A stretch of DNA of 20,263 nucleotides from IMG/VR virus record IMGVR_UViG_3300025151_000398, positions 1 to 20,263 of that record; one strand, written 5' to 3'. Position 1 is the first letter of the stretch. Each line of letters begins with the position of its first letter. Below are positions 118 through 20,263 of this stretch, in pieces. This DNA comes from a virus. A model generated the notes under the pieces. That model searched no databases. It was not told the DNA's origin and saw only the letters and a list, made by a program, of their open reading frames with translations. A program made the position numbers and the translations under genes.

Positions 118-534
118 ATGGCAGTAAACGAACAAGGACATTACGGGAAATATAGTGGTAACGCAAGATGTTGCGTGGGTCACCCATACACTAGAGTTGA
201 TAGGTATAACTACAAGGCAACAGAAAAAGATGATGCTGCTCATATTGATTATCTAAAAAGAGATGTATTGTATGATGATCATCATGGTCACGATGATGAA
301 AAAATGGTGGCAGATGAAAAGCACATATCTAAACTAGCTGGTGATATGAAGTATGATAAAGAACATCATGGACCTGCTAAAGACTTAGTTGGAAATCAAC
401 ACAGACTACCAGATCATTTAAAACAAAAAATTTTAGATGCACCAGGAAAGATGATGGAAGGACCAGCTAAACATTGCTTTGGACCAGCTAAATATGCTTA
501 CGATAGTCCCAGCAAAAGATATTGCATAAAATGA
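118..534 (+). CDS. Low-complexity His/Lys-rich protein with GPAK motifs, unknown function
   Basis: This is a 138-residue charged protein with no hydrophobic segment. Its C-terminal half carries a short motif three times as GPAK (residues 85-88, 115-118, 122-125) and once as SPSK (130-133). There is also a His/Asp-rich stretch near residues 55-61 and four Cys residues (18, 19, 120, 136). The repeats and the lack of a predicted core suggest a largely disordered protein that binds a partner through repeated short motifs; that is inference. A related motif array occurs in the protein encoded at 1002-2096. The stop overlaps the next gene's ATG (ATGA at 531-534), implying translational coupling. 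The upstream sequence is AT-rich with no Shine-Dalgarno motif. I recall similar SPAK/SPLK-type repeat proteins in marine Bacteroidota phages, none with an assigned function that I know of. Confidence 0.8.
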   Translation: MAVNEQGHYGKYSGNARCCVGHPYTRVDRYNYKATEKDDAAHIDYLKRDVLYDDHHGHDDEKMVADEKHISKLAGDMKYDKEHHGPAKDLVGNQHRLPDHLKQKILDAPGKMMEGPAKHCFGPAKYAYDSPSKRYCIK

Positions 535-683
535 AACCAAAAGGATTTGGAGACACTATTGCTGGCTTTACTAAAAAGACTGGTATTAAACATGTAGTTG
601 ATATAGTGTCTGAAGGTCTAAACATAAACTGCGGCTGTAATAACCGCCAAGAGTGGTTTAATAAAAAATTTCCATATAAATGA
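531..683 (+). CDS. 50-residue conserved phage mini-protein with C-G-C motif
   Basis: This short gene sits between two longer ones and overlaps both by ATGA junctions (531-534 and 680-683), which is good evidence that it is translated. The protein starts MKPKGFGDTIAGFTKKTGIK, continues with a short hydrophobic stretch (HVVDIV), then CGCNNR at about residues 34-39, and ends in FPYK. From memory, small phage proteins with the same plan (GLGDTI, a KKTGI-like helix, then CGC-x-x-R and a C-terminal LFPY) recur in phages of Bacteroidota and in marine viromes, always as hypothetical proteins. The C-x-C pair could bind metal or form a disulfide, but two Cys alone make only half a zinc site, so a dimer or partner would be needed. 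Function is unknown. Confidence 0.8.
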   Translation: MKPKGFGDTIAGFTKKTGIKHVVDIVSEGLNINCGCNNRQEWFNKKFPYK

Positions 684-991
684 TTGAAATAAAACCTGGT
701 TACCAGACTTCAGTTACACCTGTGTACGAAAGAGATATGAAAAATGATCCAGCTATAGGTAGAACTCTGATTAACGGGGTTATAATTATGGATAAAGATT
801 TATCGCCAGCACAACGAGTAGAAACATCTTCGCATGAAGGTGTGCATGCTGAAGAAATTGGAAATGGTGATTTTCATTGGGACGACGAAAAAATTTATTA
901 CAAGGGTAAACATTACCCAAAACATTTATTTGCTCATGGTAAGGGACCATGGGAAGATAGAGCTTATCGCGAGGAAATAAAAACAACATAA
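680..991 (+). CDS. Small HExxH protein, putative minimal zinc metallopeptidase
   Basis: This is a 103-residue protein. The sequence SSHEGVHAEEI contains H52-E53-x-x-H56, the zinc-binding and catalytic motif of zincin metallopeptidases. About 36 residues later, WEDRAYREE offers E92 as a plausible third zinc ligand, the gluzincin-type arrangement. The segment just before the motif (LSPAQRVETSSHE) fits the helix that carries the site. There is no signal peptide or membrane segment. The protein is very short for a peptidase, so it may be a minimal domain or a non-catalytic metal-binding relative. It overlaps the CGC mini-protein by four bases and lies 10 bases before the next gene. In a virion/lysis region it might process a phage protein or act in cell-envelope entry or exit, but nothing here decides between these. 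The motif reading is firm; the function is inference. Confidence 0.75.
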   Translation: MIEIKPGYQTSVTPVYERDMKNDPAIGRTLINGVIIMDKDLSPAQRVETSSHEGVHAEEIGNGDFHWDDEKIYYKGKHYPKHLFAHGKGPWEDRAYREEIKTT

Positions 992-1001
992 AATTAAAAT
1001 C

Positions 1002-2096
1002 ATGCCAAAAAAGAAAATGAAAACTAACCAAGATGGTGGTAGCTATACAGCTAAAAAGCCTGCAGCTGCTGCTGAAGAGTTAAAGAAAAACGAAGACGGT
1101 GCTGCTAAAATGGGGTATCAGCAAAAATTTGGAGCAGCTAGAATGTCGCCAAGCAAAATGGGTGATATGAAAGCAAGTGAGTTAATGCATGGTGCTGCTA
1201 GATATTATGATGGCGCTGGTCAGTATATGAACGGCGCGCCTAAATACGAAGGCGCTGGAAAATACGAAGGACCTATGGATAATCACCCTGGTGATGATAA
1301 TGACTCTATGTTTAAAGGTTCTTCAATAACTGTAGGTAAAAAAGTGTTACGTCCAGAAGATTTTCACGATAAACCAGCCGCTGATAGAGTTAGAAGTACT
1401 TTAGCAGCTGAATCAACAGATCCTATTACTGACGCTCCATCACCTATTCCAATAGACGAATATGGGTATTCTACACATCCTGATGAAGGAAAAAGATCAG
1501 CCCAAAACCTCAGCTTGGGACTAAGAGAGCGACAAAGAAGACCTATAACAGAACAAGAAACAGAATTTGAAAAACAGTTTGGTTTACGTAAGTTTGAAGG
1601 CTTAAAACCATTCCTTGATGATACACCAACTATTGATTTTGCTAAATCAAGAAGAAGAAGTGAAAAACCAGCTCAGACATATAAGGCTTATAAAGAAGGT
1701 CCAGTAGCTCAAAGGTATCAAGAAAATGTAAATATAGCTAAACAGCAACTTGAAAAAGAAAAAGGTTTCCAAATTGGAGGTAAAGGCACTACAGTTAAAT
1801 CCGTTTCAGGCCAACTACAAAGTTCAGCTAACAACGCAATGTCTGAACTTCAAAAGAAAGCCGCTGGCTTAACCGCAGCTCAAAATATTAACCAACCAAA
1901 GCCTAAAAAGAAAAAAGCAAGTTATCAGCAAAGATACGGAACAACAAGAACAGGTGATGCTTTAAGAGGTGTTGGCGGGGCAGTTCAAGATGTAGGTCAA
2001 GGTGTTGGCAATGTTGTTGAAAACATTGGAGATGCATTTAAAAGTATACTTCCTGTTAGAAGAGGTAAAAAAGTAAAATCAAGAGGTATTTTATAA
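1002..2096 (+). CDS. Low-complexity repeat protein with Gly-rich amphipathic C-terminus, unknown function
   Basis: This is a 364-residue basic protein of mostly low complexity. Residues 33-91 hold a run of degenerate motifs: GAAKM (33), GAARM (44), SPSKM (49), GAARY (64), GAGQY (71), GAPKY (78) and GAGKY (84), then EGPMD. From residue 64 the spacing is 6-7 residues. The middle is charged and contains a predicted helical Lys/Gln/Glu segment (about 230-260). A second YQQ-R-Y-G motif near residue 308 echoes YQQKFGAAR near residue 39, as if motif units were once duplicated. A KPKKKK stretch (290-295) precedes a C-terminal segment (319-350) with Gly every few residues and interspersed Val/Ile, which could form an amphipathic, membrane-active helix like those of ejected internal virion proteins. 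That is inference. The start at 1002 follows ten bases of AT-rich spacer. Function unknown; a virion-associated or ejected protein is my best guess. Confidence 0.8.
   Translation: MPKKKMKTNQDGGSYTAKKPAAAAEELKKNEDGAAKMGYQQKFGAARMSPSKMGDMKASELMHGAARYYDGAGQYMNGAPKYEGAGKYEGPMDNHPGDDNDSMFKGSSITVGKKVLRPEDFHDKPAADRVRSTLAAESTDPITDAPSPIPIDEYGYSTHPDEGKRSAQNLSLGLRERQRRPITEQETEFEKQFGLRKFEGLKPFLDDTPTIDFAKSRRRSEKPAQTYKAYKEGPVAQRYQENVNIAKQQLEKEKGFQIGGKGTTVKSVSGQLQSSANNAMSELQKKAAGLTAAQNINQPKPKKKKASYQQRYGTTRTGDALRGVGGAVQDVGQGVGNVVENIGDAFKSILPVRRGKKVKSRGIL
1191..1274 (+). repeat. Degenerate coding repeat, G-A-x-K/R-Y units
   Basis: This stretch encodes residues 64-91 of the protein at 1002-2096 and contains GAARY, GAGQY, GAPKY, GAGKY and a final GP, starting at Gly 64, 71, 78, 84 and 90. 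The DNA repeats are diverged, with units resembling GGCGCTGG and AAATACGAAGG, so conservation acts mainly on the protein. The regular spacing suggests expansion by slippage or local duplication followed by drift. Confidence 0.7.
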
Positions 2097-3188: not shown

Positions 3189-3415
3189 TGAGTACTGTTA
3201 TAAGAAAAATCAGTATTGGTTCTGATTATAAGAACGATGCTATGCACTACGCGATAGGCCAACAGGTCTATGGTGGTCATGAAATATCACACATTCTGTT
3301 TGAAGACCAAGACGCTTCTTATAACATATTCATAAAGAAAAACAATGAGGTATTGCCATGGAAGAAATTTAATTCTAACATGGCAATATCCGTTGAATAT
3401 GATTTAGAATATTAA
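3188..3415 (+). CDS. Conserved 75-residue phage protein, unknown function
   Basis: This compact protein begins MSTVIRKISIGSDYKNDAMH and continues with YAIGQQVYGGHEI, IFIKKNNEVLPWKKFNSN and MAISVEYDLEY, which looks like a small mixed alpha/beta fold rich in beta strands. From memory, close relatives (IRKISIGPDYK, HY-x-x-GQ-x-VYGGHEI, PWK-x-FNSNMP) occur as hypothetical proteins in uncultured marine phages, also next to a GroES-like gene and terminase. It overlaps both neighbours by one base (TAATG junctions), so it is translationally coupled to the coiled-coil gene and to the cochaperonin-like gene. No catalytic motif or membrane segment is visible. Function unknown; the linkage suggests a role near capsid assembly or packaging. 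Confidence 0.78.
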   Translation: MSTVIRKISIGSDYKNDAMHYAIGQQVYGGHEISHILFEDQDASYNIFIKKNNEVLPWKKFNSNMAISVEYDLEY

Positions 3416-4020
3416 TGAAAAGCGTTTTTGACTTTATAGTAAAACCGCTCGGCGAAAAATATAACAATAAAATAAAAATAGGTGATATTGAGTTAGTGTT
3501 AAACACTAAAGTAGAAAACCATAAATTTGTAAATAATTTTGCCGAAGTAATTGCTACACCTATAGCTTACAAAACACCAGTTAAAAAAGGTGATATTATA
3601 GTTATACACCATAATGTTTTTAGAAGATGGTATAATATGCGTGGTGAACAAAAAGATAGTAGATCTTTTTTTAAAGATGATTTGTATTTTGTTTCTCAAG
3701 ATCAAGTGTATCTATACAGCAGTGGTAATACTTTCAAGTCTTTTGGTGATAGATGTTTTGTTTCACCAACCAAAAATAAAAACGTTTTAGATAACAAAAA
3801 AGAACAAAGCCTTGTAGGTATACTAAAAATAGGTAATAGTTCACTAGAAGCGCTAGAAATAAACCCTGGCGACGTTGTAGGCTACAAACCATTTAGCGAG
3901 TATGACTTTGTTATCAATAATGAGCGATTGTATTGTATGAAATCAAATGATATTGTAGTTAAGTATGGACACAAAGAAAACCAAACTGAGTATAATCCAA
4001 GCTGGGCAAAGAGCAGTTGA
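3415..4020 (+). CDS. GroES-like (Cpn10) cochaperonin, divergent
   Basis: This is a 201-residue protein with two Cpn10-like features. Residues 43-66 (AEVIATPIAYKTPVKKGDII, then VIHH) match the GroES pattern of a beta strand, a gap, then x-VKxGDxVI. Residues 134-185 include LEINPGDVVGYKPFSEYDFV and NNERLYCMKSNDIVVKYG, matching the GroES C-terminal block (GDxVxFxxxxxxExxIDGxxYLxxxxxDILA). The protein is about twice the length of GroES, with an insert between the blocks that includes VFRRWYNMRG (68-77). Phage T4 gp31 is the precedent: a phage cochaperonin that works with host GroEL to fold the major capsid protein. The gene lies upstream of terminase and the capsid genes. Its last 16 residues lie in a 56-base out-of-frame overlap with the next gene. 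I recall close marine-phage homologues. A GroES-fold protein without chaperonin function is the alternative. Confidence 0.68.
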   Translation: MKSVFDFIVKPLGEKYNNKIKIGDIELVLNTKVENHKFVNNFAEVIATPIAYKTPVKKGDIIVIHHNVFRRWYNMRGEQKDSRSFFKDDLYFVSQDQVYLYSSGNTFKSFGDRCFVSPTKNKNVLDNKKEQSLVGILKIGNSSLEALEINPGDVVGYKPFSEYDFVINNERLYCMKSNDIVVKYGHKENQTEYNPSWAKSS

Positions 4021-4240
4021 AGAATTAATTAAAGTTGCTAAAGAACCTATTGTAGACTCAGGTGATGACATAACTGCTGATAGATTGAAAAATGCAGCAG
4101 CAACAAAAAAATTAGCAGTGTTCGATGCTTTTGAAATATTACATAGAATACAAGAAGAAGAAAACATATTAAACGAAAAACCACAAGAAGTAAAAGAACA
4201 AAAAACTTTTAAAGGTTTTGCTGAAGGAAGATCTAAATAA
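3965..4240 (+). CDS. Conserved small protein before terminase; possible small-terminase or packaging accessory
   Basis: This is a 91-residue, mostly helical, charged protein starting MDTKKTKLSIIQAGQRAVEE, with ADRLKNAAATKKLAVFDAFE in the middle and an acidic/Lys C-terminus. The ATG at 3965 is inside the preceding gene, giving a 56-base overlap in another frame. I keep it because there is no later Met and, from memory, homologues in marine phages begin the same way just before the terminase gene. The stop overlaps the terminase start (TAATG at 4238-4242), so the two are coupled. Its position is where a small terminase subunit is usual, but I see no clear helix-turn-helix, so DNA recognition is only a positional inference. 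Confidence 0.75.
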   Translation: MDTKKTKLSIIQAGQRAVEELIKVAKEPIVDSGDDITADRLKNAAATKKLAVFDAFEILHRIQEEENILNEKPQEVKEQKTFKGFAEGRSK

Positions 4241-6450
4241 TGTACGATCAAAGTTTGTTTAAAGTATTAGATGATCATATAAAACCTAATATAATTAAGA
4301 AAAATAATAGGTATAAAAAGTGGGAGTACGGATACAATAAGGAACATGACGTTGTTATTATAAGCAAAACAGGTAAAATTGGTGAAGTATACGAAATACA
4401 AAATTTAAAAATAGCCTTGCCATTAGAAGAAAATGTTTTTAGTTTTGATGACAATAGATGGTCAAGAAAAGATCTACCTAAGCAATTAAGTAAAATAAAA
4501 ACAATATTTGACTGGGAACAATATCCGGTAGATTTTAAAGAAGAGTGGTATGACTATATTGACGAAGAGTTTGAAAGAAGGGAAAAAGGCTTTTGGTTTT
4601 ATAACAAGGGCAACCCTACTTATCTTACTGGTTCTCATTACATGTACTTGCAGTGGAGTAAAATTGATGTTGGAAAACCCGATTTTAGAGAGTCAAATAG
4701 GCTTTTCTATATCTTCTGGGAAGCTTGTAAAGCCGATAATCGTTGCTTCGGAATGTGTTACCTTAAAAACCGACGCTCTGGATTTTCATTCATGGCATCG
4801 GGAGAAGTGGTTAATCTTGCAACAATATCCTCTGATTCACGATATGGCTTGTTATCAAAATCAGGGCCTGATGCAAAATCTATGTTTACGGACAAGGTGG
4901 TGCCCATCTCCGTTAACTACCCATTCTTTTTCAAACCCATACAAGATGGTATGGACAGACCAAAGACGGAGCTCGCCTATAGAGTACCAGCCAGTAAATT
5001 TACGAGGCGTAAGATACTCGCAAACGAACCGCAAGAAGATTTACAAGGGCTTGATACGACAATCGACTGGAAGAACACAGGTGACAACTCCTATGATGGT
5101 GAGAAACTCAAGCTCCTCGTACACGACGAATCGGGTAAATGGGAACGGCCAAACAATATCCTTAACAACTGGAGGGTCACAAAGACGACGTTAAGATTAG
5201 GTAGTAGAGTTGTTGGTAAGTGCATGATGGGATCAACGTGTAACGCGTTAGACAAAGGTGGTGATAACTTTAAAAAACTATACTATGACTCAGACGTTAC
5301 AAAAAGAAACGCCAATGGACAGACTCGCTCAGGATTATATAGTTTGTTCATACCTATGGAATGGAACTACGAAGGATACATTGATTCTTATGGATTACCT
5401 GTATTCGAAACGCCGGCAGAAGAGACTAAAGGACCACATGGTGAGATTATTGAAATAGGCGTAATTGATTATTGGCAAAATGAAGTTGATGGTTTAAAAG
5501 ACGATCAAGACGGATTAAACGAATTTTATAGACAATTTCCAAGGACGGAAGAACATGCGTTTAGAGATGAAGCAAAAGAGTCTTTGTTTAATTTAACTAA
5601 AATCTACGAACAAATAGATTTTAATGGAGATTTAAAGCATAGTTCTCTTATTACTCAAGGTAACTTTCAGTGGCTTGACGGTGTTAAAGATACAAAGGTA
5701 GTTTTTATGCCTAACAAAAATGGTAGGTTTTTTATAACATGGATACCACCTGAAAACTTACAAAATCGTGTAATATTAAAAAATGGAATTAAATATCCTG
5801 GTAATGAAGATCTTGGGGCTTTTGGTTGTGACCCTTATGATATATCAGGCACAGTTGATAAAAGAGGTTCTAATGGATCTTTGCATGGGTTAACAACTTT
5901 TAGTATGCTAGACATACCGCCAAATCATTTCTTTTTAGAATATATAGCTAGACCTCAAACGGCTGAAATATTTTTTGAAGACGTATTGATGGCTTGTGTT
6001 TTTTATGGTATGCCGCTGCTTGCTGAAAACAACAAACCAAGATTGTTATACCATTTTAAAAGAAGAGGTTATAGAGGATATTCTATGAATAGACCGGATA
6101 AAGTTTACAATAAACTATCAGTGTCTGAAAGGGAAATAGGTGGAATACCTAATTCAAGTGAAGATATTAAGCAGGCTCATGCTGCTGCTATAGAAACTTA
6201 TATAGAAAACTTTGTTGGATACAACAACGATAAATACGGTGACGTTTATTTTCAACGCACCTTAAACGATTGGGCTAAATTTAATATAAATAATAGAACA
6301 AAGCATGATGCTTCTATTAGTTCTGGTTTAGCTTTAATGGCTTGCAACAAACACAGATATAAACCAGTACCTAAATTAATTGTTAAAAATTACGATTTAG
6401 GTATAAAGCGGTATGATAACACGGGAGTTGTTTCAAAAATTATAAAATAA
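4240..6450 (+). CDS. terL: Terminase large subunit (DNA-packaging ATPase/nuclease)
   Basis: This 736-residue protein is the motor that pumps DNA into the procapsid and cuts it. The ATPase domain shows a deviant Walker A, YLKNRRSGFS at 174-183, and a Walker B, LKLLVHDE at 290-297, with catalytic Asp296-Glu297. The nuclease domain offers the acidic residues expected of an RNase H-like fold: FGCDPYD (Asp531), LLAENNK (Glu596) and KHDASISSG (Asp690). The length is normal for large terminases of this type, including crAss-like ones. The N-terminal GNPTYLTGSHYMYLQW block is also typical. The gene overlaps the upstream small gene by one base and abuts the portal gene directly (TAA then ATG). Bases 4741-5160, covering the ATPase core, have clearly higher GC and different codon use from the rest of the gene. 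Confidence 0.95.
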   Translation: MYDQSLFKVLDDHIKPNIIKKNNRYKKWEYGYNKEHDVVIISKTGKIGEVYEIQNLKIALPLEENVFSFDDNRWSRKDLPKQLSKIKTIFDWEQYPVDFKEEWYDYIDEEFERREKGFWFYNKGNPTYLTGSHYMYLQWSKIDVGKPDFRESNRLFYIFWEACKADNRCFGMCYLKNRRSGFSFMASGEVVNLATISSDSRYGLLSKSGPDAKSMFTDKVVPISVNYPFFFKPIQDGMDRPKTELAYRVPASKFTRRKILANEPQEDLQGLDTTIDWKNTGDNSYDGEKLKLLVHDESGKWERPNNILNNWRVTKTTLRLGSRVVGKCMMGSTCNALDKGGDNFKKLYYDSDVTKRNANGQTRSGLYSLFIPMEWNYEGYIDSYGLPVFETPAEETKGPHGEIIEIGVIDYWQNEVDGLKDDQDGLNEFYRQFPRTEEHAFRDEAKESLFNLTKIYEQIDFNGDLKHSSLITQGNFQWLDGVKDTKVVFMPNKNGRFFITWIPPENLQNRVILKNGIKYPGNEDLGAFGCDPYDISGTVDKRGSNGSLHGLTTFSMLDIPPNHFFLEYIARPQTAEIFFEDVLMACVFYGMPLLAENNKPRLLYHFKRRGYRGYSMNRPDKVYNKLSVSEREIGGIPNSSEDIKQAHAAAIETYIENFVGYNNDKYGDVYFQRTLNDWAKFNINNRTKHDASISSGLALMACNKHRYKPVPKLIVKNYDLGIKRYDNTGVVSKIIK
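4741..5160 (+). other. GC-rich mosaic patch inside the terminase ATPase core
   Basis: By hand count this stretch has 188 G or C in 420 bases (about 45%), against 62 in 240 (about 26%) at 4261-4500. Codons such as CTC (Leu), CCC, TCC, ACG and CGG are common here, whereas elsewhere Leu is mostly TTA. CTC appears three times in five codons at 5107-5121. The reading frame is intact, and the patch runs from before Walker A to just beyond Walker B. It looks like a segment exchanged by recombination with a relative of different codon usage. Selection on the RNA or codons is the alternative. Confidence 0.6.
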
Positions 6451-8862
6451 ATGGAAATAAACTACAACGCTAATAGCGCCTTTCCAAATCAGGTAGTACC
6501 TTTGGAGGAAAAGATGAGTTTAAAATACGGTAAACAAGTTGCCGATGCTATACAGTCTGAGTGGTTTGCTCAAGGTAGAACTAATGGTAATAGATATTTA
6601 ACTACATTTAATAATTATCATACCCGTAGATTATATGCTAGAGGTGAGCAACCTGTTCAAAAATATAAAGATGAATTGTCTATTAACGGTGATTTGTCTT
6701 ATCTTAATTTAGACTGGAAACCAGTACCTATACTATCTAAATTTGTAAATATATTAGTTAATGGTATATCAAACAAAGATTATGATATAAAAGCTTATGC
6801 TCAAGATCCAGAAAGTTTAAAGAAAAGAACTAATTATGCTAAAGCTTTAGCTAAGGATATATTTGCTCAAGATATTATAGAGCAATTAAAAGCAACAACT
6901 GGCCAAGATATATCTAAGACAAGCGTATCAAAAGAAAATCTACCTAAGACCATAGAGGAAATGGAGTTGCATTTGCAGCTTAGTTATAAACAATCTATAG
7001 AAATAGCTGAAGAAGAAGCAATAACTCAAGTTTTAGCCACAAATAAATATGAGTTGCTAAAGCGAAGATTAAATGAAGATCTTGTTGTTTTAGGTATAGC
7101 AGCAGCTAAAACTAATTTTAACCCAAGCAATGGTATAACTTTAGATTACGTTGATCCTTCTTATATGGTTTATTCTTATACAGAGGATCCAAATTTTGAA
7201 GATCTATATTACGTTGGAGAAGTTAAAGCTTTGACTGTTGCTGAAATTAAAAAACAATTTCCGCATATATCTGATGATGAATTAGAAAAAATACAAAAAT
7301 CATATAGCAACAATAATTATATTTATGGTTGGGGAGCATATGATGAAAATACTGTTCAGGTTTTATATTTCGAATATAAAACATACATGGATCAAGTATT
7401 TAAACTAAAAGAAACCGATCAGGGTTTAGAAAAAATACTAGAAAAACCAGATACTTTTGATCCTCCAGAAAATGATAACTTCACTAGAGTTTCTAGAAGT
7501 GTTGAGGTTTTATTTGAAGGCGTAAAAGTTTTAGGTACAGACATGATGCTTAAATGGGAAATGTCTGAAAATATGACGAGACCTTTAGCTGATACCACTA
7601 AAGTTGAAATGAATTATGCTATATGCGCTCCGCGTATGTATAAAGGTAGAATTGAATCACTTATTACTAAGACCATGGGGTTTGCTGATATGGTTCAATT
7701 AACACATTTAAAGTTACAACAAGTAATATCACGCATGGTGCCTGATGGTGTGTTTTTAGACATGGACGGACTTGCAGAAGTTGATCTTGGTAATGGCACA
7801 AACTATAATCCAGCTGAAGCATTAAACATGTATTTTCAAACCGGTTCAGTTGTTGGTAGATCTTTAACACAAGACGGTGCGATGAATGCTGGTAAAGTTC
7901 CTGTTCAAGAGTTATCAACATCTGCTGGTCAAGCTAAAATTGGAGCGCTTGTAAATACGTACAATTATTACATACAAATGATACGTGACGTGACGGGTCT
8001 TAATGAGGCTAGAGACGGAACGTTGCCAGATAAAGATACATTGGTAGGTTTACAAAAAATAGCAGCTCAACAATCAAACATAGCTACAAAACATATAAAC
8101 AACGCTAGTCTTTATTTAACTCTTAGGCTTTGTGAAAATATATCTAAAAAAATATCAGATGTATTAAATTACCCTTTGACTGCTAAAGCTTTAAAAGAAA
8201 GTATATCTACTTATAATGTTGAAACTTTAAAAGAGGTTTCACATTTAAACCTTCATGATTTTGGTATATTCTTAGACTTAGAACCAGATGAAGAAGCTAA
8301 AGCTCAGTTAGAGCAAAATATACAAGTTGCGCTACAATCTGGCGGTATTGATTTAGAAGATGCTATTGATCTTAGGCAAATACGTAATTTAAAATTAGCA
8401 AATCAAATGCTAAAACAAAAACGTAGATTAAAAGCTGAAAGAGATCAGCAAGCACAACAAGCGAATATACAAGCCCAAGCTCAAGCTAACGCTCAACTTG
8501 CGGAACAAACTGCGCTAGCAGAAACACAAAAGCAAGAAGTGATAAACGAACAAAAAATAGCTTTAGAGCAAGCTAAATCTCAGTTTGAAATACAAAGAAT
8601 GCAAACTGAATCTCAAATAAAGCAAACTTTAATGGCTGAAGAGTTTAGTTACAATATGCAGTTAGCTAAAGCAAGAGCTCAAGTAGAGAAAGAAAAAGAA
8701 AAAGAAATAGAAGATCGTAAAGACGAGCGTGCTAGAATTATTGGAACACAACAGTCTGAAATGATTTCACAACGTCAAAATGACGAATTACCAAAAAACT
8801 TTGAATCAGCTGGTAATGATTCACTAGGAGGTTTTGGATTAGAACAATTTGAGCCTCGTTAA
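6451..8862 (+). CDS. Portal protein
   Basis: This 803-residue protein is identified by position directly after terminase, by length and by motifs. It would form the dodecameric ring at the head vertex through which DNA enters and leaves. Residues 510-549 include MIRDVTGLNEARDGTLPDKD and TLVGLQKIAAQQSN, the conserved segment (Arg-Asp-Val-x-Gly-x-Asn-x-x-Arg-x-Gly, then a small-residue helix) I associate with portals of podovirus and crAss-like phages. The N-terminal half is alpha/beta, consistent with the wing and stem. Residues about 650-765 are an unusually long Gln/Ala/Glu/Lys-rich helix with runs such as AQQANIQAQAQANAQLAEQ, likely the C-terminal barrel or an internal coiled coil reaching into the capsid. 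The end is Gly/Asn-rich. Translation starts right after the terminase stop, with only A/T-rich upstream sequence. Confidence 0.92.
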   Translation: MEINYNANSAFPNQVVPLEEKMSLKYGKQVADAIQSEWFAQGRTNGNRYLTTFNNYHTRRLYARGEQPVQKYKDELSINGDLSYLNLDWKPVPILSKFVNILVNGISNKDYDIKAYAQDPESLKKRTNYAKALAKDIFAQDIIEQLKATTGQDISKTSVSKENLPKTIEEMELHLQLSYKQSIEIAEEEAITQVLATNKYELLKRRLNEDLVVLGIAAAKTNFNPSNGITLDYVDPSYMVYSYTEDPNFEDLYYVGEVKALTVAEIKKQFPHISDDELEKIQKSYSNNNYIYGWGAYDENTVQVLYFEYKTYMDQVFKLKETDQGLEKILEKPDTFDPPENDNFTRVSRSVEVLFEGVKVLGTDMMLKWEMSENMTRPLADTTKVEMNYAICAPRMYKGRIESLITKTMGFADMVQLTHLKLQQVISRMVPDGVFLDMDGLAEVDLGNGTNYNPAEALNMYFQTGSVVGRSLTQDGAMNAGKVPVQELSTSAGQAKIGALVNTYNYYIQMIRDVTGLNEARDGTLPDKDTLVGLQKIAAQQSNIATKHINNASLYLTLRLCENISKKISDVLNYPLTAKALKESISTYNVETLKEVSHLNLHDFGIFLDLEPDEEAKAQLEQNIQVALQSGGIDLEDAIDLRQIRNLKLANQMLKQKRRLKAERDQQAQQANIQAQAQANAQLAEQTALAETQKQEVINEQKIALEQAKSQFEIQRMQTESQIKQTLMAEEFSYNMQLAKARAQVEKEKEKEIEDRKDERARIIGTQQSEMISQRQNDELPKNFESAGNDSLGGFGLEQFEPR

Positions 8863-10117: not shown

Positions 10118-11563
10118 ATGGGAACATTAACCCCTACGTTTGGTACTATAGTACCCTCGCAACTGCAACAAACACTAGCGAGTAACTATTTATCATTCGA
10201 CGGCGCTGCTGGAGGAAACTTTGCGCAGCAATATTTGCCTGAGCTATACGAAGCTGAAGTAGAGCGTTACGGAAATCGTACGCTTTCTGGATTCTTACGT
10301 ATGGTTGGTGCTGAACTACCAATGACATCTGATCAAGTAATTTGGTCTGAGCAAAATCGTTTGCATATTGCTTATGATGGTTGTACTAACGGTGGAGCAG
10401 CTAACACTATTACTATTCCAATCGCTATCGGTGCTAATCCAGTAGAAAATGTTATTTCGCCACAACAAACTATCGTTGTGTTGGATAGCAATGGTGCTGA
10501 ATCAAAATGTTTGGTTGTTACTTCTGACACTACAACTGGTGTGCTAGAGGTACTTCCTTACGGTTCTGCTGACCTAGTTACTGAAGGACTTGTTGGTGAT
10601 TTGAAGATCTTTGTATACGGTTCTGAATATCCAAAAGGAACTAACACTACTATCGCTGGAACTGGAACTTTGCAAAAAAGTGGTAACGACTACCCAATTA
10701 TGTCAGTTACTCCTGCTTTCAAGCAATTTTCTAACAAACCAGTTATCATTCGTAACGCATATTCAATCAATGGTTCTGACACAGCTCAGATCGGTTGGGT
10801 AGAAGTTGCTACTGAAGATGGTACTTCTGGATATCTATGGTATCTAAAAGCTGAGTCTGAAACAAGACTACGTTTTGAAGATTACCTAGAAATGGCTGTT
10901 GTTGAAGGTGAGCAAGTAGGTGCTACATCTACTATTACTGGCGTAAGTGGTACTGAAGGTTTGTTTGCTGCGATCGAAGGTCGTGGAAATAAAATGGTAG
11001 GCTTTACAGCTGGTACTGGCATCGGTGACTTCGATGATATTCTACGTAACCTAGATACTCAAGGAGCTATTGAAGAAAACATGCTTTTCTTGAATCGCAA
11101 CACTAATTTAGAATTTGACGATATGCTTGCTGGCTTATCTTCAGGTGCTGATGGTGGTACTGCTTATGGACTATTTGAAAACTCAGCTGAAATGGCATTG
11201 AACCTTGGGTTCACTGGCTTCCGCAGAGGTTCTTATGACTTCTATAAGACTGATTGGAAATACTTGAACGATGCTTCAACTCGTGGCGCTCAAACTGGGC
11301 CAGCTTCAGTAGAAGGAGTTCTTGTACCAGCTGGTACTTCAACAGTGTATGATCAAATCCTAGGAACAAACATTCGTCGTCCATTCCTCCACGTACGTTA
11401 TCGCGCTTCACAAGCTGATGACAGACGTATGAAGTCTTGGCTGACTGGTTCTGTTGGTGGAGCTTTCACTAGTGATTTAGATGCTATGACAGTAAACTTC
11501 TTGTCAGAAAGATGTTTAGTTGTACAAGCTGCTAATAACTTTGTGATCTTCAAAGGAGCATAA
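10118..11563 (+). CDS. Major capsid protein
   Basis: This 481-residue protein comes right after the scaffold-like gene. It begins MGTLTPTFGTIVPSQLQQTL, followed by a helix and EAEVERYGNRTLSGFLRMVG, a pattern I know from capsid proteins of marine and crAss-like phages, expected to have the HK97 fold. Residues about 85-245 are beta-rich, Gly/Thr-rich and variable-looking, consistent with an inserted surface domain. The C-terminal part (from about 265) is more helical and ends LVVQAANNFVIFKGA. Codon use differs from that of neighbours: GC is raised (around 42% in three sampled lines) and codons such as AAC, TTC, CGT and CTA are frequent, as expected of the most highly expressed virion gene. A strong terminator hairpin follows eight bases after the stop, so this gene probably ends the scaffold-capsid transcript. 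Confidence 0.88.
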   Translation: MGTLTPTFGTIVPSQLQQTLASNYLSFDGAAGGNFAQQYLPELYEAEVERYGNRTLSGFLRMVGAELPMTSDQVIWSEQNRLHIAYDGCTNGGAANTITIPIAIGANPVENVISPQQTIVVLDSNGAESKCLVVTSDTTTGVLEVLPYGSADLVTEGLVGDLKIFVYGSEYPKGTNTTIAGTGTLQKSGNDYPIMSVTPAFKQFSNKPVIIRNAYSINGSDTAQIGWVEVATEDGTSGYLWYLKAESETRLRFEDYLEMAVVEGEQVGATSTITGVSGTEGLFAAIEGRGNKMVGFTAGTGIGDFDDILRNLDTQGAIEENMLFLNRNTNLEFDDMLAGLSSGADGGTAYGLFENSAEMALNLGFTGFRRGSYDFYKTDWKYLNDASTRGAQTGPASVEGVLVPAGTSTVYDQILGTNIRRPFLHVRYRASQADDRRMKSWLTGSVGGAFTSDLDAMTVNFLSERCLVVQAANNFVIFKGA

Positions 11564-14877: not shown

Positions 14878-17800
14878 ATGGCGGAAAGTAAAAACATTTT
14901 TATAAAATCCAAAATGAACAAAGATCTTGATGATCGTTTGTTACAACAGGGTGAATATAGAAATGCTGTTAATATACAGGTAAGTAAGTCAGAGTCAGAA
15001 GATGTTGGAGCTCTAGAAAATATATTAGGTAATATAAAATCAATTGACACTGGTAGTGGCCATGCTATAGTAGGTTATTTAGTTTCAGAAAAAAATTCTT
15101 CTGTTTATCTATTTACAACAAATAATAAAATAGTTGGAAATCCAAACGGAGATTATTCTAAAAATTCAACTTGTCAAATAGTAGAATACATTTGGAATGG
15201 CTCTAGCTTTAGCACTACTAATTTATTAGTATCAGGAGCATTTTTAAATTTTTGGGAAGGATCGCCTATTGTGGCAAACTTATTAGAAGATTTTTTGTTT
15301 TTTACAGATAACAGAAATCAGCCTAGAAAAATAAATATACTTTTAGCAAGAGAATCATCTACGCATTATCAAACAGAAGATGATATAAGCATTGCTAAAT
15401 ACACTCCATATGTAGCCCCTTTACTTTATCAAACTTCTCCTTTATCACCTGGTGATTACGAAACAACAATGAAAGATGTTGTTAGTGAATATCTACCAGA
15501 CGGCACTACAAATAATCCATATTACAACGCTTTATACCAAGGTGATCCAGATTATTTAGAAGATAAATTTGTAAGATTTGGATATAGATTTCAATATGAA
15601 GATAATGAATACTCTGTGTTTTCACCTTTTACTCAAGAATGTTTTATACCAAAGCAAGACGGTTATTTTTTAGAGGGTGATGAACAGCAAACTGTAGCTA
15701 GTACGGTGGTTTCTTTTCTAGAAAATAAAGTAAACCAAATTACTCTACGTATACCAATGCCTTCCGTAAGTGATCCTGCGTTACCTAGTACTACACTTGC
15801 TAACGTTACTAATCAATTTAAAATTAAAAATGTAGAAATACTTTATAAAGAATCTGACGAAATAAGAGTTTTAGTTGTTGATACTTTAAGGGCTCAAGAT
15901 ATTATTAACCAATATCTTCCATTTTATATATCAAATCCAGGAACCAGTGGTTACACTCAAGCTACAGACGTTCCTACTACAGGTGGCACTGGAACTGGAC
16001 TTATTGTTACAGTTTCCCGTGTTGACTCTGGTCAAGTTGCAGAGGTTCAAATAACAGACAATGGAAGTGGATATGTAGAAGGAGATGTAGTGACTATAGA
16101 TGCTGGTAGTGCAGATGCGACTATAACTATAAAAAATCTAAACACATTAGAATATACTTATTCAGGTACTAAACCATTTAAAACTTTACCAGAAGCGCAA
16201 ACAGTTAGGGTGTATGATAAAGTACCTGTTAAAGCTAAAACACAAGAAATAATTAGCAATAGGGTTGTATATGGTAATTTTCAAACCAAACACACTCCGC
16301 CATCAGATTTAAATTACAACGTAGGTGCTCAACAAAAATTAACTTTTGATCTTGGTACATACGGCGTTGATGCGGCTACAAGTATTGTAGAATATCCTAA
16401 CCATAGTTTAAAGCAAAATAGAAACTATCAAGCTGGTTTTGTTTTTGCAGATCGATTTGGTAGAGCTACGTCTACTGTGCTTTCTAACTCAGGATCTATT
16501 AGCTCTACAACAGCTTCGCAGTTGTCTACAGTATATTCACCTTATAACGATAGTACAGTAGATATACCAGCGTGGCCAGGAGACTCTTTAGTTGTTCAGC
16601 TTAACGACACGATACCTTTGTCGCCAAATCCAAGTTCATTATATCCAGGGGTTTACAATGGTGATCCAAACAGCGACGACTATAATCCACTAGGTTTTTA
16701 CTCTTGGAAAATTGTAGTAAAACAACAAGAGCAGGATTATTACACAGTATATCTACCTTCAGCTATGAAAGGTAATCCCTATTTTACAGGCACGCCTAGC
16801 GCAACTGAACCTCCAGAACAAAACGCATCTTTTGTTACTATTATAAACGACAACATTAATAAAATACCAAGAGATTTAACAGAAGTTGGTCCTCAAGATA
16901 AAAGTTTCAGAAGTTCTGTTATATTGTATGGTAGGGTTGAAAACACAGAATCTACGTTTAGTAATATAGGAAACGTTCAGTATTATCCTGAAAGAAGATC
17001 GTTTACAACAAACGTTATAGAAGATTTATTTGATATATTTGATGTTGCTGACTTCAACGCAACAGGTCAAGCTCCACCAATAACTAATGATAACAATCCT
17101 TATTTTGCATTTTTTAGATCAGAATCAAATCCTTTTATAGCTGAATTTATTACATCACAAACAGAGCTAGATCAATTTGGTATAACCAACGAAGCTTATA
17201 CTAACGGTACTGCGTATGATAAATTTGAAAACTTAACTATAGTAGAAACAAATCCTGTAGAATCTAGGTTAGATATATATTGGGAAACATCGACATCTGG
17301 AACTATAGCAGATTTAAATGAGTATGTTTCAAACGAAGGCGGTTCAACAATATTTGCTTTAGAAAATTTTAATTTTGAATTTAATGAAGATTTTGAAGTA
17401 TATACTGGAACTGTATTAGACCCTGAGCCAAGCAACGGCAGAGCTGTCGTTAATAACAATGGTCCTTTTTATTTTAGCGACGTATTTAACCAACCTATAA
17501 CTCAAGTATCCTTAATTAGTTTTTCAGTTACTGCAAACAACACGCCTGTTAACGGTCAGTTTGATTGTATAAAAGTACCAGCAAATGATACTGTAGTTAT
17601 AAATGGAGTTTCATATAATAATCCTTATGATTCTTTTTATATTGTAAGCACAAATAGATTATATTACGACAATAATAACTTACTTGCTCAAGATTATACG
17701 TTTTCTATAACAGTTCAAGATACTTTTGGCGCGCCTAATATAAACGTAACAAAAACAGTCGCAAACAATTTACTTGGAAACAAAGATACTGAGATAGTTT

Positions 17801-19515
17801 CTGAAACACCTTCTTCTCCAGTTGATTATGTGTATGGGTATACTCAACCATCAAATGGTTTAGCTCAATTTATAGGTACTAATGGAGGTGGTGGTAAGTT
17901 TTCAAATAACGGAGCTACTAGTCTAAACCAAAATGGTTTAAGTTTTCAAATTACAGAAGTAAGAGATGGTGGTGGTAATGTGGTTCAAACTGGAAACACA
18001 GGATTGTTTACCATGAATAACGTTACAGTAGGACAAGCTAACGAAGGTCAAATAGTAGAAACAGTTTATGGAGCTGTTACTGGCAGTCACTCAATAGACG
18101 TTCTTTTAACAGGCCCAGAAGCAACTAACGACACTACAACATATGAGTTAACTATAGGTGAAGAAACAGCAGATGGATCTTTTACCTCAACAGGATCTCC
18201 TGTTACTATTTTTAGTGATAGTGGTAGTAGAGAATGGTCTTATGGAGGCACATATATAGGTAGTTTTCATGATAGTAATTATCAATTTGGAGATAACATT
18301 CAAAACACTTTTTATCCTACAACACTTTATTGGAACAATACTCAATACAATCTTGGAGCTTGCTTTACGTCCGGCTCTCAATCAGGTACACCTACAGGTG
18401 CTCAACAATGGTATACTTCTCCGAGAGTAACAACTGACTCATCAGCAGGTTATGGTTTTACTATGGGTACAGGTATTATTTACGGTTATTTTGAAATAAA
18501 CGGGCAAATGTCTTTTAGCTCTTTTTATAATTATGTTGGAACAACTATAGCTCAAATATCTGTAGATTATAGACCTAATAGTACTTCATCTTGGGTTGCT
18601 GCTAAAGATATAGAAGGTAGAACTATATCAATGTTTAATTCAAATAGTGTTTCTAACACAAACTTTCAAGCAGATAAAAACAATGCAGGTAATTCTTACA
18701 ATCCATTTAGACAGCGTTATGGAGCTAGAGATGGCAGTAGAACTATTAACTCTGGATCTAAGGGTGCCACTCAATTTGCTAGCAGCATTAGTGATATAAA
18801 TAATTCTAATCAATGTATAGTTCCTTTTTGTTTTGTTATAGGTAATAGCCCTGTGTACAATGGTACACTTGGAAATAATTATGGTACTGGTCACGGTGAG
18901 TATAGAGTTGTAGTAGGATATAATAATGGTAGTTTTACACAATGTAGTAATAGTGGTATATCTAATAATGGCGCACAAAGTCTTTCAAATTTAGTTGTTA
19001 GAGCAGCTGATTTTTACTATGATTTTGGTAGTAATAGATCTTATGCTTATAAAATTAACACTACTGCTTTTTCTACTAGACAAAATGCTATTGACGATGC
19101 TTCCAACACATCCCCAGGCGGTTTAAATACAAATGTTTATGCTAGAGAACCTTTTGCAAGATATGTTAGTCAATTTTATACTGATCCAGGTTTAACAAAT
19201 CCTTTAGATTTAGGTAATGGTACCCCTGCTTATTTCGCTTATATGGCTGCACATATTCCTGCTACAGGATCAGATTTAGTTGCAAACGCAAGTACTAACG
19301 CAAGTGTAGACATTACTATCGCTATGGAATCCGCTCAGTTACCTCAAGGTTTTGGCGGGTCTACCGCCCCGCCTCCAGGTCATTCTGGAACAGTGAGTCA
19401 AATAGACAGGCAAACAGATAGAATGTGGACTGCTCGATTTACACGCAATACATCTGAGCCAAATGGACTTATAAGTTATAAAGTTGCTAATTCAGCAGAA
19501 CCAAAAGGTCAGTAG
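14878..19515 (+). CDS. Large tail stabilisation protein fused to fibre-like domains
   Basis: This is a 1545-residue protein. The N-terminus, MNKDLDDRLLQQGEYRNAVN followed by IQVSKSESEDVGALENILGN (together residues 13-52), matches the opening of tail stabilisation proteins (P22 gp10-like) of crAss-like phages. Later parts look modular. At about 369-420 there is a Gly-rich beta unit of the kind GGTGTGLIVTV ... GSGYVEGDVVTIDAG. At 795-808, ESRLDIYWETSTSG is a motif I recall from several phage tail proteins. At about 875-960 there is an Ig/cadherin-like region. From about 1100 onward it is Ser/Thr/Asn/Gly-rich, as in fibres or adhesins. The protein would sit at the tail tip, sealing the channel and probably carrying host-binding regions. 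It is far longer than P22 gp10 (about 470 residues). The gene starts 6 bases after the adaptor stop. Confidence 0.8.
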   Translation: MAESKNIFIKSKMNKDLDDRLLQQGEYRNAVNIQVSKSESEDVGALENILGNIKSIDTGSGHAIVGYLVSEKNSSVYLFTTNNKIVGNPNGDYSKNSTCQIVEYIWNGSSFSTTNLLVSGAFLNFWEGSPIVANLLEDFLFFTDNRNQPRKINILLARESSTHYQTEDDISIAKYTPYVAPLLYQTSPLSPGDYETTMKDVVSEYLPDGTTNNPYYNALYQGDPDYLEDKFVRFGYRFQYEDNEYSVFSPFTQECFIPKQDGYFLEGDEQQTVASTVVSFLENKVNQITLRIPMPSVSDPALPSTTLANVTNQFKIKNVEILYKESDEIRVLVVDTLRAQDIINQYLPFYISNPGTSGYTQATDVPTTGGTGTGLIVTVSRVDSGQVAEVQITDNGSGYVEGDVVTIDAGSADATITIKNLNTLEYTYSGTKPFKTLPEAQTVRVYDKVPVKAKTQEIISNRVVYGNFQTKHTPPSDLNYNVGAQQKLTFDLGTYGVDAATSIVEYPNHSLKQNRNYQAGFVFADRFGRATSTVLSNSGSISSTTASQLSTVYSPYNDSTVDIPAWPGDSLVVQLNDTIPLSPNPSSLYPGVYNGDPNSDDYNPLGFYSWKIVVKQQEQDYYTVYLPSAMKGNPYFTGTPSATEPPEQNASFVTIINDNINKIPRDLTEVGPQDKSFRSSVILYGRVENTESTFSNIGNVQYYPERRSFTTNVIEDLFDIFDVADFNATGQAPPITNDNNPYFAFFRSESNPFIAEFITSQTELDQFGITNEAYTNGTAYDKFENLTIVETNPVESRLDIYWETSTSGTIADLNEYVSNEGGSTIFALENFNFEFNEDFEVYTGTVLDPEPSNGRAVVNNNGPFYFSDVFNQPITQVSLISFSVTANNTPVNGQFDCIKVPANDTVVINGVSYNNPYDSFYIVSTNRLYYDNNNLLAQDYTFSITVQDTFGAPNINVTKTVANNLLGNKDTEIVSETPSSPVDYVYGYTQPSNGLAQFIGTNGGGGKFSNNGATSLNQNGLSFQITEVRDGGGNVVQTGNTGLFTMNNVTVGQANEGQIVETVYGAVTGSHSIDVLLTGPEATNDTTTYELTIGEETADGSFTSTGSPVTIFSDSGSREWSYGGTYIGSFHDSNYQFGDNIQNTFYPTTLYWNNTQYNLGACFTSGSQSGTPTGAQQWYTSPRVTTDSSAGYGFTMGTGIIYGYFEINGQMSFSSFYNYVGTTIAQISVDYRPNSTSSWVAAKDIEGRTISMFNSNSVSNTNFQADKNNAGNSYNPFRQRYGARDGSRTINSGSKGATQFASSISDINNSNQCIVPFCFVIGNSPVYNGTLGNNYGTGHGEYRVVVGYNNGSFTQCSNSGISNNGAQSLSNLVVRAADFYYDFGSNRSYAYKINTTAFSTRQNAIDDASNTSPGGLNTNVYAREPFARYVSQFYTDPGLTNPLDLGNGTPAYFAYMAAHIPATGSDLVANASTNASVDITIAMESAQLPQGFGGSTAPPPGHSGTVSQIDRQTDRMWTARFTRNTSEPNGLISYKVANSAEPKGQ

Positions 19516-19545: not shown

Positions 19546-20263
19546 ATGGCACTTATAGAAGTTAAATATTTTAACTCTTTTATATTAAAGAAGATAAAAA
19601 ATAATAACATACCTGCTGATCCTCCTGTTTGGGACGGGTCTAGAGGTATACCTGCTTCTATAGATGGTAATCTAACTGGATATCCTATCGTAAGCAACCC
19701 TAATGAAACTTATTCTTGGGCTATTGAAGATTCTAGAATACGTGGTGGTTATAACAACACTCAGGTTAGTTTTGGACCTAAAGCTTACGTTGTTGAGGAA
19801 GATTCTTCTGGTTCTATACGTGGTAATGCTATGATATATTCTGGCATATTTAATTCTAGAACTGGTATAAATAACACAAATCAATTTAGCGTAGGTGAGG
19901 AAATAACAAAAGGAACGGATCCTGCTAACGGTAGTATACAAAGACTATACGCTGAAGATTCAAACCTTATTATATTTTCAGAAAAGAAAGTAAGTAGAGC
20001 TTTAATAGATAAAGATGCTATATACACCGCTGAAGGTGGTGGCGTGCCTGTTAGTCAACTAAATTTAGTTATAGGTCAAATAGTACCTTATGCTGGTGAA
20101 TTTGGTATAGGTGATCACCCTGAAAGCTTTGCTGTGTATGGTTATAGAAAATATTTTGTAGATAAAAATAGAAATGCTGTATTAAGATTATCACGAGATG
20201 GTATTACAGAAATATCTAACTATGGTATGATTGATTGGTTTAGAGATAAATTAGCTGAAGTAG
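19546..20263 (+). CDS. P22 gp10-like tail stabilisation/propeller protein (partial, 3' end missing)
   Basis: The ATG at 19546 opens a frame that stays open for 239 codons to the window edge, so the gene is truncated on the right. The protein begins MALIEVKYFNSFILKKIKNN. It then shows repeated blade-like stretches: YSWAIEDSRIRGGYNNTQVS, AMIYSGIFNSRTGINNTNQF, GSIQRLYAEDSNLIIFSEKK, VSRALIDKDAIYTAEGGG, HPESFAVYGYRKYFVDKNRN and AVLRLSRDGITEISNYGMID. I recall the last blocks (HPES-x-A-x-Y, a YF-x-D run, then LSRDGITEIS-x-YGM) from gp10-like stabilisation proteins of crAss-like phages. In those phages, as I remember it, these blocks and the MNK-type N-terminus belong to one protein, whereas here they lie in two neighbouring genes. 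The 30-base gap upstream is AT-rich. Confidence 0.8.
   Translation, partial: MALIEVKYFNSFILKKIKNNNIPADPPVWDGSRGIPASIDGNLTGYPIVSNPNETYSWAIEDSRIRGGYNNTQVSFGPKAYVVEEDSSGSIRGNAMIYSGIFNSRTGINNTNQFSVGEEITKGTDPANGSIQRLYAEDSNLIIFSEKKVSRALIDKDAIYTAEGGGVPVSQLNLVIGQIVPYAGEFGIGDHPESFAVYGYRKYFVDKNRNAVLRLSRDGITEISNYGMIDWFRDKLAEV

Follow-up and report, generated by a model that had tools for sequence, protein, structure and literature searches.

A short linear motif on unrelated late proteins of a marine podovirus-like phage group, a candidate docking tag for virion cargo

Why should two viral proteins that resemble each other in nothing else carry the same tetrapeptides? The question is raised by an IMG/VR virus record of 20,263 bases, analysed over its whole length and here called the window, which carries the packaging and structural module of a podovirus-like phage. 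The genes concerned are the following:

118..534, + strand: g1, 138 aa, a conserved His/Asp-rich domain (residues ~1-84) and a disordered motif tail
522..683 (probable start 531), + strand: g2, a small Cys-Gly-Cys protein between the motif proteins, itself free of the motif
680..991, + strand: g3, a small predicted HExxH (HEGVH) zinc-protease-like protein
1002..2096, + strand: g4, 364 aa, motif-rich in the N-terminal ~95 residues, the rest variable
2497-2895: holin-like protein (phrog_3427)
4240-6450: TerL (phrog_6681)
6451-8862: portal (phrog_6547)
10118-11563: virion structural protein, probably the major capsid protein (phrog_13704)

The genome is AT-rich (GC ~34%) and the cultured relatives of its TerL, with 30-45% identity, are flavobacterial phages (Flavobacterium elemo, Cellulophaga, Maribacter and Tenacibaculum phages). 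One circular podovirus record, found at Manatee Spring, has a TerL of 62% identity, TerL at 76-83% identity is encoded by at least 80 IMG/VR contigs, and a single scan of a genome collection matched three metagenome-assembled contigs and gave no clean host. The window also encodes a 201-aa protein (3415-4020, + strand) whose cultured-phage homologues, located just before TerL, are annotated as co-chaperonin GroES/cpn10, and many relatives encode a phage GroEL (L084:2036-3583 and its relatives) and a GroES-type protein immediately upstream of the block of motif-bearing genes described below.

The preliminary description had reported three GPAK and one SPSK in the protein at 118-534, and GAAK, GAAR, GAPK and GAGK units with an SPSK in the protein at 1002-2096. 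When the motif was scored as [GS][AP][APGS][KR] in the 18 window proteins, with expected counts from 20,000 residue shuffles, all of these were located; g1 contains four (0.09 expected, p <= 5e-5 from the residue shuffles) and g4 six (0.55 expected, p <= 5e-5 likewise), and each of the remaining 16 of the 18 proteins contains none. Their positions are:

370..381, + strand: GPAK motif 1, g1 residue 85, exactly at the domain/tail boundary
382..459, + strand: helical cassette LVGNQ..LP..L..IL.APGK between g1 motifs, recurring in unrelated proteins
460-471 and 481-492 (span 460..492), + strand: GPAK motifs 2 and 3, g1 residues 115 and 122
505..516, + strand: SPSK, g1 residue 130
1098..1262, + strand: the six g4 motifs, GAAK (residue 33), GAAR (44), SPSK (49), GAAR (64), GAPK (78) and GAGK (84)

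All six g4 motifs fall within residues 33-87, so that residues 1-100 hold six against 0.24 expected. They are spaced by 11, 5, 15, 14 and 6 residues, and the run with 6-7 residue spacing described at first is found only in the last interval, the GAPK-GAGK pair. That the two proteins are otherwise unrelated was borne out, the best BLASTP E-value between them being 0.25. The motif copies differ in their codons; SPSK is encoded by AGT-CCC-AGC-AAA in g1 and by TCG-CCA-AGC-AAA in g4, and since the first serine belongs to two codon families a single base change cannot join them. A DNA-level repeat or a recent duplication as the source of the motif is ruled out by this codon diversity.

For g1, 74 relatives were fetched from IMG/VR. 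All 17 invariant columns of the g1 alignment (A1) lie within residues 38-80, and by eye the conserved domain consists of two similar halves, AAHIDYLKRDxxYDxxHGH and EKHISKLAGDMKYDKEHHG. An AlphaFold model predicts long helices at residues 32-56 and 60-84 and gives most of the tail a pLDDT <50. Searches with g1 gave no Pfam match and a best PHROG E-value of 0.069, a fold search of the model in BFVD and PDB nothing at E <= 0.001, and tblastn with a g1 family sequence against 50,697 phage records no match. At the domain boundary, directly after a conserved HH, most of the 62 non-identical homologues (a share read off a list without a fixed scoring rule) carry a motif variant, including GSPAK, GPAK, GPGK, SPAK, SPLH and GAAR, and after this the tail becomes unalignable. 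The LVGNQ cassette of the window g1 recurs in L061 (E 2e-5), L114 (3e-3) and, weaker, L058 (E about 0.05), each time within an unrelated protein, and by eye a similar cassette is present in an SPFQ protein of G002. The piece HSESGEHLGxKKM is common to g1 tails (L091, L093, L103) and g4-like proteins (L013, L123) with E-values of ~1e-7 to 1e-6, which indicates that the g1 and g4 families exchange pieces. In one relative (L151:4858-6666) the g1 domain is embedded in a 602-aa protein.

The g4 family comprises 22 members according to a profile search, and its conserved part is the N-terminal motif-rich block, AEKLGYIQ..GA.R.SPGKMGD...HGDAAAKYYDGAG.YMNGAPKYEGASK. Some members contain tandem HHGGMK units, and the relative L084 has strict short-period tandems (HHGPMKEHGPMK...) with five GPMK clustered mostly 6 residues apart. 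Pfam and PHROGs gave nothing usable for g4, the best Pfam match (E 0.004) lying below its cut-off.

An unbiased search for three-residue patterns was performed on 267 non-redundant families from ~150 related marine contigs. SPL ranked first (69 versus 10.8 expected) followed by M.SP, SP.N and SP.K, SPF was found behind SPL, and neither SPK nor SPR was among the top 40 patterns. At position 3 L, F and A predominate, and position 4 of SP[LAMF] is frequently N or H. The general core is S-P-[L/F/A] followed by K, N or H, and does not support positive charge, which the preliminary description had pointed out, as the decisive property of the motif. In 11 long contigs (39-77 kb) SP[LAMF] is raised mainly in the block from -10 to -2.5 kb before TerL, with 50 versus about 10 expected, and is near expectation outside it; this late block adjoins the packaging and structural genes. 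An independent set of 44 contigs, having little DNA in common with the earlier ones and chosen by the KGKFTAW domain only, contained 66 SP[LAMF][KNH] versus 3.1 expected and 37 SPF versus 3.2, while TP, NP, GP, SP[GDEST] and SP[IVYWT] were weakly or not enriched, and in this set SP precedes the domain in 40 of 40 KGKFTAW proteins. The contigs behind these counts are partly redundant and uncultured, their ORFs were called mechanically (longest non-overlapping) and the expected values derive from residue shuffles; some counts depend on the chosen motif classes, the first ranking being the unbiased one.

The motif is often N-terminal (MSSPF/MSSPFQ, MKKSPL/MKKSPLN, MYTQYSSPFFK, MAYIQPxSPF), many copies starting 1-4 residues after the start Met, and stands ahead of differing small domains; its serine is encoded by TCN in ~72% and by AGY in ~28% of cases. 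No enrichment of the SP motif was detected in cultured relatives or Crassvirales loci, which rules out that all small phage proteins carry it. The SPAK-like repeats that the preliminary description mentioned for other Bacteroidota phages are present in the uncultured marine relatives but not in the cultured relatives checked, and a literature search found no paper on SPAK in Bacteroidetes phages, on DUF6321 or on linear motifs of ejection proteins. Across the related phages the motif is far above composition-matched shuffles. The existence of a motif system is well supported; the motif is group-specific, confined to the late block and spread over several proteins, and it looks constrained at the protein level. 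Judged from the sequences of the relatives, GPAK/GAAK of the window represents one branch of a genome-wide SP[L/F/A]-x tag on dozens of unrelated late proteins.

The two forms of the motif, S and G, were compared between g1 and the other proteins of each genome. Where g1 is of S type (GSPAK), the other proteins contain 103 S motifs versus 6.5 expected and 11 G motifs versus 43.6; where it is of G type (GPAK/GPGK), they contain 58 G motifs versus 15.4 and 6 S motifs versus 1.9. The flavour of g1 mostly goes with that of the other motif proteins in the same genome, an agreement which is the expected outcome of one shared partner. When the types are placed on a tree built from the 201-aa neighbour, one or two changes suffice to explain the G type. 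The correlation thus has no more than one or two evolutionary switches behind it, and a large part of the G signal is contributed by g4, a protein seldom present outside the G branch.

Two SP-tagged domains connect the group with virion cargo, since they recur in gp45 of crAss001. This gp45, cargo protein C1, has been placed inside the capsid and the tail barrel by mass spectrometry and cryo-EM, its peptides 275-300 and 307-320 being among those found by mass spectrometry (PMC10172136). The GTYPVNT domain matches gp45 residues 269-329 (phmmer E 4e-7; BLASTP 8e-10) and the KGKFTAW domain, weakly, residues 377-419 (E 3e-3). The latter can be clearly recognised in the C1 of Rudgehvirus, cr127_1, cr128_1 and cr108_1, the BLASTP alignment of cr128_1 C1 with a KGKFTAW protein starts at SPF in both, and in three Suoliviridae the domain forms a separate ORF between the portal and capsid genes. 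A fold search of the KGKFTAW domain in the PDB gave no match at E <= 0.001. The gp45 of crAss001 contains no SP[LAMF], and the general claim that crAss C1 carries the same motif was rejected, SP[LAMF] being raised in only 2 of 7 C1 proteins. Searches of a set of Crassvirales and cultured phage loci with g1 and g4 profiles gave no relative, and neither protein is a member of the gp45 family. The shared gp45-type domains could also serve a function outside the virion.

The C1 proteins of L200, L203, L207, L208 and L209 contain a recurring [FYH]xxGG above shuffles (e.g. 10 versus 2.5 in DAC15); in the crAss phages this element may take the place of the SP motif.

At its end the window encodes a relative of the crAss-like muzzle protein:

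19546-20262, + strand: muzzle relative, its family matching the C-terminal part of crAss001 gp44 (profile E 4e-10)

Further matches of the family are to structural proteins from Cellulophaga phi38:1 and from elemo phages, and two genes, this one and probably 14878-19515, seem to encode the muzzle between them. The relationship to gp44 makes a crAss-like tail plausible, and in the same block of Cellulophaga phi38:1 the small basic proteins gp69 and gp80 are annotated as structural.

We propose, at about an even chance and from sequence comparison, that late proteins use the motifs as docking tags for a single virion or assembly partner and are thereby packaged as internal cargo. The tetrapeptides would be copies of one short linear docking motif, S-P-[L/F/A/M]-[K/N/H] in its general form in the marine group and, in the branch to which the window belongs, mostly G-[P/A]-x-[K/R]. 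Unrelated late proteins, g1 and g4 among them, bear it at the N-terminus or between small helical cassettes. All bearers would bind one phage-encoded partner at the portal, the tail barrel or the assembling head, be packaged and be delivered with the DNA, and several copies per chain may raise the binding strength. Docking to one partner had been suggested from the outset; it fits the sharing by unrelated proteins, the enrichment, the late-block position and the co-varying flavour, and is retained here as a proposal. More tentatively, and with odds somewhat against it, the motif may be a general packaging code of these abundant marine Bacteroidota phages, a four-residue loading signal by which a whole payload of unrelated small proteins would travel in the virion and reach the host. 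Such a payload could include the HExxH protease and the DUF6321 proteins and evolve by cassette shuffling, motif and receptor having switched from SP to GP together in the window branch.

Of the two conserved neighbours between the motif proteins, g2 is conserved in 50 marine loci and in the Manatee Spring phage L157 (E 7e-22). Its neighbour g3 suggests another reading, in which the motif is a processing site and a phage protease, perhaps g3, cuts at S/G-P-x-K and frees the cassettes. The gene sits between g1 and g4, HExxH is kept in 77 of 77 homologues, no homologue was found in the cultured-relative or Crassvirales loci checked, which lack the motif, and the cassettes are separated by motifs. 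However, a cut would free nothing at the many motifs that stand within 1-4 residues of the start Met (as in MSSPF and MKKSPL), and the N-terminus of g3 in many homologues (MAFKLNNPPYK) itself resembles an SP tag, so that g3 may be cargo instead of processor; we consider processing unlikely. Weak matches to Peptidase_M91/DUF7225 were seen for a g3 relative.

We rate no higher the reading in which a host protein or the phage GroEL/GroES is the binding partner and the motifs act in infection or folding instead of in the virion. The chaperonin genes upstream of the motif block would suit it, but GroEL genes are present also in cultured relatives without the motif, and the shared gp45 domains point to virion cargo.

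Binding to DNA by a histone H1-like S-P-x-K element that condenses the AT-rich genome is more doubtful still. S/T-P-x-K sequences are minor-groove motifs which SPAK and SPSK resemble, and the low GC content would agree with such a role; the third residues are however mostly L, F and A and the fourth often N or H, unlike SPKK, the net charge of g1 is +1 and many G-flavour copies lack the S/T-P core wholly. Neutral low-complexity linkers spread by cassette recombination, as the hypervariable, mosaic tails and the cassettes swapped among unrelated proteins might suggest, are just as improbable, given that both serine codon families encode the motif, that the pattern is specific to SP[LAMF] and that the motif is kept at the g1 boundary while the downstream sequence changes completely.

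If the docking tag does load cargo, it would offer a simple peptide signal by which proteins are packaged in phages of this kind; the small proteins that enter the host with the DNA could be read from sequence in a common uncultured phage group, and cargo choice in crAss-like virions could be tested by four-residue mutations.

Among known systems, the SPKK repeats of the histone H1 C-terminus share the S-P-x-K look of some copies, but here the third residue is hydrophobic, the fourth frequently N or H and the context acidic or His-rich, and basic residues do not occupy positions 3 and 4. PF19846 (DUF6321) is matched above cut-off by two SP-tagged small proteins of the relatives, but is a domain of unknown function found also in pelagiphages and cyanophages and not in the window proteins. 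A DUF6321-like gene of the pelagiphage HTVC023P (L294, 4881-5198) lies three genes after a capsid protein gene. The internal proteins of T4 are a diverse small set whose only common feature is a short capsid targeting sequence, CTS (PMC3012670), and the diverse small late proteins described here likewise share only a short tag. The likeness drawn here is an analogy of tag principle and not an assignment to the T4 class; the present tag has an SP[LF] core and is also internal and repeated, and its role in packaging is putative.

The closest comparison is with C1, the ejected cargo protein of the gut crAss-like phages, a multi-domain, partly disordered protein of Bacteroidota phages with a related muzzle protein, which contains within one chain the GTYPVNT-type and KGKFTAxAKK-type domains; two domain families of gp45 recur in other motif-bearing proteins of the group, where they are separate SP-tagged proteins. 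C1 differs in being one protein of 576-854 aa encoded after the muzzle gene, whereas here many small proteins precede the terminase, the motif block lying 2.5-10 kb upstream of TerL and not right behind the muzzle gene; the linker that recurs in C1 is [FYH]xxGG, not SP/GP, and C1 lacks the g1 and g4 domains. In the docking reading preferred here, many small cargo proteins would replace the single long multi-domain C1.
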